From: Nocardiopsis sp. CNT312
GTDB taxonomy: Bacteria > Actinomycetota > Actinomycetes > Streptosporangiales > Streptosporangiaceae
NCBI RefSeq assembly: GCF_000515115.1
Contig: NZ_KI911536.1
Coordinates: forward strand, 1 to 64,000
Length of the DNA stretch: 64,000 bases
Direction: 5' to 3'
In this document: piece after piece, positions 8,166 through 11,722 of the stretch
Layout: each line of letters starts with the position of its first letter
Numbering within the stretch: the stretch's first letter is position 1
Translations under genes and position numbers: made by a program
Notes under the pieces: model-generated
What the model was told of the DNA's origin: nothing
Seen by the model: only the letters and a program-made list of their open reading frames with translations
The model's database searches: none

Positions 8166-8978
8166 TTGAACAACACCCACCACACGCCTGACCCTGAGTC
8201 CCTGCGCGACCTTGCCGTGAGTGTGGCCGCGGAGGCGGGTGAGCTCGCAGCCGAGGGGCAGGCGGGCATCACCGTCCTGGACACCAAGTCCAGCCCCACC
8301 GACGTCGTCACCAAGATGGACAGAGCCGCTGAGGAGCTCATCCGGACCCGCCTGCTCCAGGAGCGGCCCGACGACGCGATCCTCGGCGAGGAGGGCGGCG
8401 GTGCCCCCGGCACCAGCGGGGTCCGATGGATCGTCGATCCGATCGACGGCACGGTCAACTACCTGTACGGCCTGCCGGACTGGGCGGTGGCGATCGCGGC
8501 GGAGGTCGGCGGGCGGGTCGTGGCCGCGGCGGTGGCCGTCCCGGTCCGGGGCGAGATGTTCGAGGCGGTCCTGGGCGCAGGCGCCTACCGCAACCGTGAG
8601 CCGCTGCGGGCCCCGGCCGCTGTGCCCCTGGAGCGCGCCCTGGTCGCTACCGGCTTCGGGTACTCCGCGCGGCGCCGGGAGCACCAGGCCAGGGTGCTGC
8701 TCGACGTGCTGCCACGGATCCGCGACATCCGCAGGGACGGGTCGGCCGCCGTGGACCTCACCGGCCTGGCCGTGGGGCGCTACAACGCCTACTACGAACG
8801 CGGGCTCAACCTCTGGGACTGGGCCGCTCCGGGACTGATCGCCGCCGAGGCGGGGATCCGGGTCGGGGGCCCGAACGGCGGCCCGCCCTCCACTGACCTG
8901 GTGATCGCGGCCCGGCCGGAGCTGTACGAGGACCTCGAGGTGCTGCTGGCACCCCTGGCCGCCGACACCGACGGCTGA
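8166..8978 (+). CDS. Inositol-monophosphatase-family protein
   Basis: A 270-residue Mg-dependent phosphatase. The metal-binding motifs are GEEGG (about residue 77), WIVDPIDGTVNYLYGLP (about 96-112) and LNLWDWAAPGLIAAEAG near the C-terminus. Together these are the three signature blocks of the IMPase/SuhB family. Likely substrates are myo-inositol 1-phosphate or related sugar phosphates, and the family also contains histidinol-phosphate phosphatases. The start is TTG at 8166, preceded by GGGAGA at about eight bases. A GC hairpin follows the stop. Confidence 0.9.
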   Translation: MNNTHHTPDPESLRDLAVSVAAEAGELAAEGQAGITVLDTKSSPTDVVTKMDRAAEELIRTRLLQERPDDAILGEEGGGAPGTSGVRWIVDPIDGTVNYLYGLPDWAVAIAAEVGGRVVAAAVAVPVRGEMFEAVLGAGAYRNREPLRAPAAVPLERALVATGFGYSARRREHQARVLLDVLPRIRDIRRDGSAAVDLTGLAVGRYNAYYERGLNLWDWAAPGLIAAEAGIRVGGPNGGPPSTDLVIAARPELYEDLEVLLAPLAADTDG

Positions 8979-9082: not shown

Positions 9083-9247
9083 CTAGCAGCGGGTATCGAT
9101 GCCGTTGCGGGCGGCGATGCGGTGCAGGTCCTCAAGTTCCGAGGCGTGCGTCTCGGCGAGGAATTCGTCCCCGGCGGCCTGAGCCGAGCGGAGCGACCTG
9201 TGGGTCTCGTTGATCCGGCCCTTGATCTCTGTGAGGAACTCGCCCAT
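9083..9247 (-). CDS. Conserved-looking 54-residue protein of unknown function
   Basis: A 54-residue protein (MGEFLTEIKGRINETHRSLR at the N-terminus, NGIDTRC at the C-terminus), predicted mostly helical and charged, without membrane segment or signal. The coding case rests on an AGAGG ribosome-binding site four bases before ATG 9247 and strongly GC-biased third positions. An upstream in-frame extension to 9415 lacks a ribosome-binding site and was rejected. The terminal Cys is single. It stands alone, convergent with the phosphatase gene and divergent from cutR. I do not recognise a family. Confidence 0.7.
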   Translation of the reverse strand: MGEFLTEIKGRINETHRSLRSAQAAGDEFLAETHASELEDLHRIAARNGIDTRC

Positions 9248-9554
9248 GACACCTCTTTCTAGGGGTAGGGGCCGGTGTGTACGGGCACACCGGCGTGAAG
9301 ACGTCAGCGCGCGGAGGTCGCGCCCGTGCGGGGCGCTCGCGTGTCGCGGTCCGGATCTCACCGGTGTCCGTGCACGCCCGGTGAGTCCTACCGCATCGGA
9401 GCCGCGGTCAAACATGGGGCCGGGGCCCGCCTCGCGGCGGTGTCCGGTGGGGGAGGGCGGGGAGCGGGCGGTGTCTTAGGTCATACCCGCTTGGCGTCTC
9501 CCGTGCTTACTTGTTTCTTATCCTTGATGTGTCACATTTGAGATGTGCGGGGTT

Positions 9555-9595
9555 GGGTCGCCGCCGACGGTTGGGGGATTCGTCGGCGGCGGCTC
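9555..9595 (+). other. Hairpin I with loop GTTGGGGGATT
   Basis: A perfect 11-bp stem (CGCCGCCGACG 9559-9569 / CGTCGGCGGCG 9581-9591), extendable to about 15 pairs with G-U pairs, closes an 11-base loop GTTGGGGGATT (9570-9580). The loop decamer GTTGGGGGAT recurs in hairpin II although the stem sequence differs, so the loop, not the stem sequence, is conserved. Confidence 0.6.
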
Positions 9596-9735
9596 CCCGC
9601 GCGTCGCCGCTGGCGACACTCCCGGTCCAGCGCCCGTGCTCCGCACGGGGTGGGGCGGCCTCGAGGCCGCGGCGGGTTTACCGCCCCCTTACCCTGTGTG
9701 TGGGAGAACGGATGACGCGGCCGGGACACATGAAC

Positions 9736-9781
9736 GCCGCTGCCGGTGTGTTGGGGGATGCGCCGGCAGCGGCCCTTTTTC
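9736..9781 (+). terminator. Hairpin II with loop GTTGGGGGAT and a T-tract
   Basis: A 13-pair stem (9736-9748 / 9761-9773, core CCGCTGCCGG / CCGGCAGCGG, one G-U) closes the loop TGTTGGGGGATG and is followed by CCTTTTTCT. It has the form of a Rho-independent terminator placed about 40 bases before cutR. It could end a leader RNA or act as an attenuator. Confidence 0.6.
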
Positions 9782-9821
9782 TCAGTACAGGTCCCAGGTA
9801 CTCCAGGTCGAGAAGGACAAC

Positions 9822-10475
9822 GTGCGCGTACTCGTGGTCGAAGACGAACGGGTTCTTGCCGACACCGTCGCGGTCGGGCTCCGGCGTGAGTCCATGGCGG
9901 TCGACGTGGCCTACGACGGCGACACCGCCCTGGAACAGGTGTCGGTCAACGACTACGACGTGATCATCCTCGACCGCGACCTGCCCGGCGTGCACGGCGA
10001 CACCGTCGCGCGCACCCTGGTCGGGGACGGCCATCTCGGACGCATCCTCATGCTCACCGCCTCCGACGCGGTCGAGGACAAGGTGGAAGGCCTGACCCTG
10101 GGCGCCGACGACTACCTGGCGAAACCCTTCGCCTTCGTCGAACTCGTCGCCCGCGTCCACGCCCTGGGCCGCCGCGCGGTCCCGCCGCTGCCCCCGGTCC
10201 TGGAGCGCCACGGCATCACCCTGGACCCGGCCAACCACCGGGTGCACCGCGACGGCCGCGAACTGTCGCTCACCCCCAAGGAGTTCGCCGTCCTCCAGGT
10301 CCTCATGCGCGCCCAGGGGACGGTGGTCAGCGCCGAGGGCCTCCTGGAGAAGGCCTGGGACGAGAACGCCGACCCCTTCACCAACGTGGTGCGGGTCACC
10401 GTCATGACGCTGCGCAAGAAACTGGGGGAGCCCCCGGTCGTCCAGACCGTGCCCGGTGCGGGGTACCGGCTGTGA
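9822..10475 (+). CDS. cutR: CutR-type OmpR/PhoB response regulator
   Basis: A 217-residue response regulator. The receiver domain (about 1-115) has VEDE near residue 5, the phospho-acceptor Asp in VIILDRDLPG (about residue 50), LMLTAS and DDYLAKPFAF. The C-terminal winged helix ends DPFTNVVRVTVMTLRKKLGE and VPGAGYRL. The very close match of this C-terminal block to Streptomyces CutR, as I recall it, and the position near ferrochelatase and dut support the cutR assignment. GTG 9822 follows GAAGGA at about five bases. The stop overlaps the kinase start by four bases (GTGA), so the pair is translationally coupled. In Streptomyces CutRS affects secretion-stress and antibiotic phenotypes; the role here is inferred. 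Confidence 0.9.
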   Translation: MRVLVVEDERVLADTVAVGLRRESMAVDVAYDGDTALEQVSVNDYDVIILDRDLPGVHGDTVARTLVGDGHLGRILMLTASDAVEDKVEGLTLGADDYLAKPFAFVELVARVHALGRRAVPPLPPVLERHGITLDPANHRVHRDGRELSLTPKEFAVLQVLMRAQGTVVSAEGLLEKAWDENADPFTNVVRVTVMTLRKKLGEPPVVQTVPGAGYRL

Positions 10476-11722
10476 GGTCGGACGGTGCCTCCGAGCCGGG
10501 ACACGTGGAGCCCACCCGGTCCGGTGACACGAGCACGTGGCGCAGCCTCGCCGCCGTGGCCCCCTCGGGGGAGGGAGCGCAGCCCTCGGCCGCAGCCGCG
10601 CACATGCGCCGCTTCAGCGACAACCTCAGTATCCGGGCGCGGCTCACCCTCATCTACGGGATGCTGTTCTTCGCGGCCGGCTCCGTGCTGGTCCTGGTCA
10701 ACTATCTGATCGTCGCGGTGCTGCTCAACGCCCTCCTGGCGGAGGAGAGCGCCTCGGAGCTGGTGGCGCACGGCTACCTCATCGAGGAGGTCCTCACCCA
10801 GGTCACCCGGTTCTCCCTGCTCGCCCTGTTCCTGGTGGGACTGCTCGCGGTGGCCCTGGGCTACGCAGTGGCCGGCCGCGCCCTGTCCCCGCTCCAGAAG
10901 ATCACCCGCATCGCCCGGCGGCTCTCCGAGCGCTCCCTGCATGAGAGGATCGCCCTCTCCGGCCCCGACGACGAGATCCGCGAACTCGCCGACACCTTCG
11001 ACGGCATGCTGGAGCGGCTGGACCGCGCCTTCGACGGACAGCGCCGCTTTGTGGCCAACGCCTCACACGAGCTGCGCACGCCCCTGGCGATCAACCGGAC
11101 GCTCCTGGAGGTGGCGCTCAGCGCCCCCGAGGTGTCCGCCGACCTCAAGAGCGTCGGTCAGACCCTTCTGGAGACCAACGCGCGCCACGAACGCCTGATC
11201 GACGGACTGCTGATCCTGGCCCGCAGCGATCGCGAACTGGAGGCGCGCACCACGGTCGACCTCGGCGAGGTCGCCGAGACGGTCCTCAGCCAGTCTCCGG
11301 GGGAGTCGGACGAATCCGGTCTGCTCGTGCGCCGGGACCTGCGCCCGGCCGTGGTGGAGGGCGACCCCGTCCTGTTGGAGCGGCTCGTGGCCAACCTGGT
11401 GGAGAACGCCCTGAAGTACAACGTCGAGGGTGGGGAGGTGACCGTCCGCAGCGGTATGTACGAGGGCCGCCCCGCGGTCCAGGTGGAGAACTCCGGCAAG
11501 GTGATCCCCGCCTACGAGATCGAGGGCCTCTTCGAACCGTTCCGCCGGGGTTCGGGCGACCGCGTGGGTTCGGGGCGCAGCGCGGGCCTGGGGCTGTCCA
11601 TCGTCCGCTCCGTGGTGCGCGCGCACGAGGGCGTGGTGACCGCCTGGCCGCGCGCGGGGGGCGGCCTCGTCGTCACGATCTGCCTACCCGTTCCGCCGGG
11701 GCGGGGCGCCGAACGCCGCTGA
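10472..11722 (+). CDS. cutS: CutS-type sensor histidine kinase
   Basis: A 416-residue membrane kinase. A hydrophilic N-terminal tail of about 55 residues precedes TM1 (LIYGMLFFAAGSVLVLVNYL). A short extracytoplasmic segment of about 35 residues and TM2 (FSLLALFLVGLLAVALGYAV) follow, then a HAMP-like linker, the HisKA box FVANASHELRTPLAINR, the N box LVANLVENALKYNV, a degenerate G1 (VENSGKVIP) and the G2 box AGLGLSIVRSVV. The atypical G1 is, from memory, also found in Streptomyces CutS. The sensor segment contains no cysteine, a possible difference from Streptomyces CutS. The start GTG overlaps the cutR stop. A start at the internal ATG near 10604 would also keep all domains. Confidence 0.88.
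   Translation: MRSDGASEPGHVEPTRSGDTSTWRSLAAVAPSGEGAQPSAAAAHMRRFSDNLSIRARLTLIYGMLFFAAGSVLVLVNYLIVAVLLNALLAEESASELVAHGYLIEEVLTQVTRFSLLALFLVGLLAVALGYAVAGRALSPLQKITRIARRLSERSLHERIALSGPDDEIRELADTFDGMLERLDRAFDGQRRFVANASHELRTPLAINRTLLEVALSAPEVSADLKSVGQTLLETNARHERLIDGLLILARSDRELEARTTVDLGEVAETVLSQSPGESDESGLLVRRDLRPAVVEGDPVLLERLVANLVENALKYNVEGGEVTVRSGMYEGRPAVQVENSGKVIPAYEIEGLFEPFRRGSGDRVGSGRSAGLGLSIVRSVVRAHEGVVTAWPRAGGGLVVTICLPVPPGRGAERR

Follow-up and report, generated by a model that had tools for sequence, protein, structure and literature searches.

Two hairpins with a common G-rich loop upstream of cutRS in Nocardiopsis and related genera: a conserved structured element and probable cis-regulatory leader

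Upstream of cutR in Nocardiopsis sp. CNT312, two hairpins expose the same G-rich loop on different stems, and the question is what such a pair does there: whether it works as RNA or as DNA, and whether it serves the adjacent genes or acts elsewhere. The DNA analysed, here called the window, comprises 64,000 nucleotides (positions 1 to 64,000 of contig NZ_KI911536.1) of a genome of 4.68 Mb. An initial annotation had pointed out an identical 10-base loop in two hairpins 180 bases apart, and this is accurate: GTTGGGGGAT is present exactly at 9570-9579 and 9750-9759. The T-tract that it placed after the second hairpin, just before cutR, is likewise found there (9776-9780, + strand), with the GTG start codon of cutR at 9822, 48 bases past the stem of hairpin 2.

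On one side, the hairpins are flanked by an inositol-phosphatase-like gene (8166-8978) and a small ORF on the opposite strand, and on the other side by cutR. On the + strand, cutR (9822-10475) encodes an OmpR-family response regulator according to Pfam, with a conserved start codon and, judged by eye, a Shine-Dalgarno-like sequence GAGAAGGA at 9810-9817; cutS (10472-11722) encodes a sensor histidine kinase with a HAMP match, also according to Pfam. Both names are given because of similarity. A primer for cutRS of S. coelicolor has been published (PMC10433416), and its first ~22 bases are also present at the cutR start of locus L192, whose CutR is 72% identical to that of the window. The small ORF, MGEFLTEIKGRINETHRSLRSAQAAGDEFLAETHASELEDLHRIAARNGIDTRC (9083-9247, minus strand), is divergent from cutR and gave no match in an NCBIfam search; MGEF-like starts, in reverse complement, are visible upstream of cutR in many loci of the outgroup.

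By itself, the loop sequence is not rare. The window contains three exact copies of the GTTGGGGGAT 10-mer, and five with at most one mismatch where 3.6 are expected; the whole genome contains five copies, and no stem comparable to those of the hairpins was seen by eye around the other three. The stretch as a whole is highly structured: the predicted fold of 9540-9790 has an energy of -166 kcal/mol (z -6.2), which none of 200 shuffled sequences equaled. Across the 70 loci with both hairpins that were collected from related genomes (see below), a GGGGGAU core is present in the loops of both hairpins without exception. The loop of hairpin 1 is GTTGGGGGAT in 66 of these 70 loci and differs slightly on its 5' side in the remaining four (L012, L060, L066, and L076); therefore, GGGGGAU is the invariant core. 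In one locus, L054 of genome G095, the interval between the two hairpins contains a third GTTGGGGGAT (position 1090 in the locus as oriented), which appears by eye to be enclosed by the perfect-stem arms GCCCGGCCC and GGGCCGGGC and to which the covariance model gave no score.

Hairpin 1 provides evidence for a function at the RNA level. Its inner stem consists of 13 uninterrupted pairs, one of them T-G, between 9557-9569 and 9581-9593 on the + strand, enclosing the loop GTTGGGGGATT (9570-9580). Covariation was evaluated in an alignment (A2) of 66 of the 70 hairpins, which leaves out the loop variants L060, L066, and L076 as well as L182; L001 and L002, which represent other copies of the loop, were left out of all alignments. 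Among the 806 cells of this alignment (66 sequences, 62 of them distinct), 99.3% are paired, and this share drops to 30-70% in slid controls. Both sides have changed at 7 of the 13 pairs, and the compensatory changes, at different pairs, include C-G to U-A, G-C to A-U, G-C to C-G, and C-G to G-C. Cells changed on both sides number 87, against 14.5 in shuffles, and the score was reached in 0 of 500 shuffles, a count that is not to be taken as a probability, as the sequences share kinship. That a conserved loop on changed stem pairs marks a functional RNA, as originally suggested, is therefore upheld by strong covariation in hairpin 1 across 17 genera. Around the inner stem, an outer stem can form between the invariant GTGCGGGG (9545-9552) and 9595-9602, both on the + strand. 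Its duplex energy is -17.0 kcal/mol, against -12.1 kcal/mol with 3' flanks randomized by simple shuffles, but flanks swapped between genera perform nearly as well (-16.3 kcal/mol).

Could the stems instead mimic RNA while serving as DNA, for example as an inverted-repeat operator or another protein-binding site? The wobble pairs bear on this. In hairpin 1, 37 cells are G-T or T-G and only 4 are A-C or C-A. Since this asymmetry is expected of an RNA transcribed in the direction of cutR, hairpin 1 is a base-paired RNA of the cutR (+) strand; an RNA of the minus strand is ruled out by the same count. A DNA site leaves both the asymmetry and the compensatory nature of the changes unexplained, and the loop, which is conserved in both hairpins, is not symmetric. 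What does speak for a DNA-level element is hairpin 2 (9736-9773, + strand, with its loop at 9750-9759), a 38-mer that is identical in 69 of the 70 loci, with a single-base difference in L182, so that both arms are invariant beyond what base pairing demands. On balance, a DNA-level element is rather unlikely as an explanation of the pair. The near-total invariance of hairpin 2, on which the initial annotation is silent, leaves no covariation to be seen among the 70 loci, as the sequence hardly varies; its pairing rests on perfect complementarity and stability, and its own constraint could lie at the level of DNA. The searches by which the loci were recruited did not include the 5' arm of this hairpin; a 24-mer with part of the arm served for names only. 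Of the 69 rows available for hairpin 2, alignment A3 contains 31. In the same kind of duplex test as above, an outer stem around hairpin 2 scored no better than with swapped flanks.

The two stems had been described as unrelated in sequence. This is correct for the genome of the window; in other genera, however, they are nearly alike (GTCGCTGCCGG and GCCGCTGCCGG), and the two hairpins therefore resemble variants of a single element.

A covariance search of relatives, which had been proposed as a check, was performed with a model (R1) built from hairpin 1, and relatives do contain copies: exactly two in 70 of the 341 genomes of the family, covering 17 genera, besides six weak single matches. 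The absence of further copies from related genomes, named beforehand as grounds for refutation, is thus contradicted. Among 394 genomes of the class, 23 contained two copies and 7 a single weak match; genomes G060 and G068 are common to the weak matches of both searches, and no match to CutR was found in the regions fetched around the seven weak loci of the class search. Outside the group of Nocardiopsis, Streptomonospora, and Thermobifida, no R1 copy is convincing. Simpler searches gave a similar picture. Of 297 genomes in the order, 68 contained the pattern GTTGGGGGATKCGYCGG, in most cases as two copies separated by 100-320 nt, and 2 contained the reversed pattern. The 24-mer of hairpin 2 was present in 51 stretches among named genomes, which belong to Nocardiopsis, Streptomonospora, Thermobifida, Marinactinospora, Murinocardiopsis, Allosalinactinospora, Actinorugispora, and Marinitenerispora or are records of one Nocardiopsaceae bacterium, one genome named Glycomyces fuscus, and one MAG. 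Within the genus, 36 other genomes were queried with 421 bases comprising the leader and the start of cutR, and in 35 of them the match extended across the leader, with 76-84% identity; in the sole exception, G025, a CutR match is also absent at E 1e-70. In the 36-row alignment of the genus, the loop of hairpin 1, a block GCTTACTTGTTTCTTATTCTTGATGTGTCAGATTTGAGATGTGCGGGG, and the whole of hairpin 2 are nearly or fully invariant. The copies and the covariation in 70 genomes rule out a chance origin of the hairpins, and a coding sequence is ruled out by the freely varying length of the middle part, as judged by eye.

At all 70 loci, cutR is located 3' of both hairpins, as established by tblastn (33 loci), by alignment and start codon (36 loci), and separately for L182. 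Counted from where the second loop starts, cutR begins after ~50-125 nt in each of the 33 further loci, and the distance between the loops, 180 nt here, ranges from 104 to 320 nt in loci of other genera. A conserved structure is thus fixed upstream of a single gene family, and the leader role proposed in the initial annotation fits this constant position directly upstream of cutR. The linkage also bears on two other explanations. Two near-copies side by side might be what remains of a mobile or REP-like repeat that landed here twice, but the presence of a single pair, at a single locus, in each of the 70 genomes refutes this by copy number and makes it vanishingly improbable. A stand-alone small RNA, transcribed from a promoter upstream of one or both hairpins, ending at the T-tract of hairpin 2, and acting elsewhere, would match the 250 nt of dense structure with a promoter-like block and a terminator-like end in this genus. 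It is unlikely, though, as the element is always tied to cutR, R1 finds none elsewhere in the 70 genomes, and a run of four T's is absent in 27 of the 70 loci.

Two promoter-like blocks, which had escaped the initial annotation, are associated with the hairpins. OmpR/PhoB-type regulators usually bind an 11-bp direct repeat located close above the -10 element. P1, ahead of hairpin 1, contains a direct repeat with an 11-bp period, CTTACTTGTTTCTTAT (9506-9521, + strand), as a putative response-regulator operator; P2 contains the direct repeat TTTACCGCCCCCTTAC (9677-9692, + strand), at the position equivalent to that of the single cutR promoter in other families, followed by a -10-like GAGAAC (9704-9709, + strand; GATAAC in many other genera), proposed on the basis of spacing and conservation. 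Promoters of this type have tandem 11-bp direct repeats ~10-12 bp upstream of the -10 element, a layout that the repeats fit with the putative -10 positions. The 5' strand of the outer stem of hairpin 1 lies near the presumed P1 start. A YTTAY-N6-CTTAY repeat or a near version of it precedes hairpin 1 in 67 of 67 loci and, by eye, in L060, L066, and L076 as well, i.e., in 70 of 70, and a TTA direct repeat precedes hairpin 2 in 61 of 70. The nine loci without the latter are four of a genus of the Thermobifida group (g25), L061, L034, L036, L037, and L038. In the g25 loci, L068-L071, which have lost the P2 repeat, some show a T-rich stretch after hairpin 1, suggesting that control has shifted towards hairpin 1. 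About 20 nt ahead of P1, an imperfect palindrome GTGTCTTAGGTCAT (9471-9484) was noticed by eye in the alignments; it reads GTGTCCCATGACAC in many Nocardiopsis and GTG..CAC in most other genera, and we take it to resemble the actinobacterial Crp consensus.

The repeat extends beyond the genomes with hairpins. In outgroup loci without hairpins, it is found at most 160 nt from cutR in 22 of 23 cases, where shuffles predict 0; the one miss, L200, reads CTTAC-N6-CTTAG, and in most of these loci, ACAAT-, AGAAT- or ATAAC-like -10 candidates follow ~12 nt past the repeat. In a Streptomyces-like genus, all 25 genomes have it no more than 220 nt upstream of cutR. In the window's own genome, the pattern matches five times, against four for a reversed control, and three of the five are not at cutR. 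As the same repeat precedes cutR outside the group, the simplest view is that P2 is the ancestral promoter of cutR and that P1 was added. Duplication of the whole unit would be an attractive origin of the pair; however, the stretches between repeat and hairpin in P1 and P2 show no significant similarity (mean z 0.8 in 67 genomes, with simple shuffles). A 2025 study in Streptomyces reports enrichment of CutR at the cutRS promoter by ChIP and no site there (PMC12802291); the published motif, TAWATAAA, does not cover the TTA direct repeat. The repeat, of the CTTAC-N6-CTTAY type, is a candidate autoregulatory site of CutR across actinobacteria.

Hairpin 2 with its T-tract raises the possibility that most transcripts stop before cutR unless antitermination intervenes, and attenuation was among the roles that had been put forward. 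In the window, a G+C-rich hairpin is indeed followed by a T-tract as in an intrinsic terminator, and one such terminator-like site (9736-9773 followed by TTTTT) was found against 0.4 expected. A run of at least four T's within 12 nt after hairpin 2 is present in 43 of the 70 loci, i.e., in 30 of 39 within the genus and in 13 of 31 elsewhere, and in the other genera hairpin 2 is unchanged apart from one base in L182. In addition, RNAalifold gave no conserved antiterminator structure, and the middle part varies in length. Because only 43 of 70 loci have the T-tract, attenuation does not qualify as the conserved role. In this species, hairpin 2 could plausibly terminate transcription, and attenuation is possible to that extent; as an account of the element as a whole, an attenuator is possible but doubtful.

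No Rfam family covers the element. Rfam 15 gave no match at or above the gathering score in the window, and at E ≤10 over 9400-9900 only sub-threshold matches were obtained, the best of them to F6, on the opposite strand, with 25.3 bits against the required 46. RNAs targeted by ANTAR proteins are alike in that the leader of a message contains two stem-loops whose similar loops are recognized in trans. However, as described in PMC8164766, their loops are hexanucleotides with A1 and G4, and the linker measures 2-25 nt; the loops of the leader, GTTGGGGGAT, comprise 10-12 nt without A at position 1 and are 104-320 nt apart. Leaders of the Csr/Rsm type may be alike in having GGA in hairpin loops near the message of a regulator; the loop here is GGGGGAU. 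Guanidine-II (mini-ykkC) RNAs likewise consist of two small hairpins with identical loops on different stems, but their loops are ACGR, their hairpins are close together, and the element has no Rfam match. The cutRS promoter of Streptomyces shares the gene pair and the upstream 11-bp repeat (25 of 25), whereas GGGGGAT is absent from the 220 nt upstream of cutR in all 25 genomes of the Streptomyces-like genus. Literature searches, covering titles and the starts of abstracts and largely restricted to papers outside subscription, yielded nothing on a cutRS leader motif. The element is filed as a new cis-regulatory leader motif outside any named family.

The 6C RNA (RF01066) deserves separate discussion, since it and other sRNAs with C-rich loops also consist of hairpins in tandem whose loops contain a run of a single base and are complementary to the leader loops. 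Its base is C where that of the leader is G, it is encoded at a separate locus, and its model gave no match to the leader; membership of the 6C or ANTAR-target families was rejected. The 6C RNA could still be a partner, if its two C-rich hairpin loops kissed both G-loops and so controlled cutRS mRNA. It is present in 30 of 35 genomes searched, and in all 30, its loops can form 6-10 bp with the 10-nt G-loop, at -13 to -18.5 kcal/mol. In mycobacteria, 6C/B11 acts via a C-rich loop on G's in mRNA, as stated in PMC12395582. However, six of the 30 genomes have no hairpins and their 6C loops pair equally well; therefore, no co-evolution is seen and the pairing is a lead only. Moreover, pairing of this kind is available to any loop rich in G, it leaves the flanking GUU of the loop unexplained, and the 6C match of the window's own genome is weak (44.6 bits, below the cut-off of 47). 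Regulation by 6C is accordingly improbable. The latter match is located at L039 (C11:9746-9823); 6C was absent at E 0.001 in four of six genomes of the same genus searched and may be diverging in Nocardiopsis. A bolder version, which is more doubtful still, would make the leader of Nocardiopsaceae a two-site docking RNA that forms a double kissing complex with the C-loops of 6C, so that a global stress sRNA would set the dose of cutRS, while in species with the T-tract, the hairpin would also act as a terminator and thereby release a natural sponge for 6C. If so, the dose of cutRS would be under a stress sRNA even though its own sensor does not possess the redox cysteines of Streptomyces.

These cysteines set the sensors apart. 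In Streptomyces-like loci, two cysteines are found within 110 residues of CutS in 25 of 25 cases, and PMC12802291 reports that two cysteines control CutS in Streptomyces and that the double serine variant is constitutively active. By contrast, no cysteine was found in the 85 residues from the first membrane helix of CutS in 22 outgroup loci (besides L192 and L182), nor in the in-frame readings of the hairpin group (L003-L032 minus L021, whose reading was out of frame, 31 of L050-L082, and L182). Some of these readings are short, L059 and L070 have no cutS in reach, and the sequence of several loci stops within the sensor loop. In the genus of the window, a very short loop joins the membrane helices of CutS. 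With the two redox cysteines absent, sensing by CutS would have to differ, which would leave scope for regulation through expression.

The favoured reading is that of a leader that regulates in cis and whose loop is recognized in trans, and the element is likely to be a structured leader acting in cis at the 5' end of cutRS mRNA, with two tandem promoters that each give transcripts starting with a hairpin. P1 and P2, each with an 11-bp TTA repeat typical of activators of the OmpR/PhoB family, would probably start transcripts ~10-20 nt upstream of a hairpin, so that the message from either promoter would open with a hairpin bearing the same G-rich loop. CutR would bind the repeats and thereby regulate its own expression. 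The strict linkage in cis, the single pair per genome, and the same loop at both presumed 5' ends suggest that the loop is read whichever promoter is used. A trans-acting factor, either an RNA-binding protein or an sRNA with a C-rich loop, would read the loops and set the stability or the translation of cutRS mRNA. In species with the T-tract, including this one, hairpin 2 could in addition terminate transcription and release a short RNA.

The element represents a structured RNA with clear covariation that is absent from Rfam 15 and fixed to one signaling operon, in a group of hosts that includes Thermobifida and producers of antibiotics. Such a leader is known from few two-component systems. 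Two leads follow: the factor that would read the loop, and the conserved repeat in the cutRS promoter, where, according to the Streptomyces study, CutR was enriched without a recognized site (PMC12802291).
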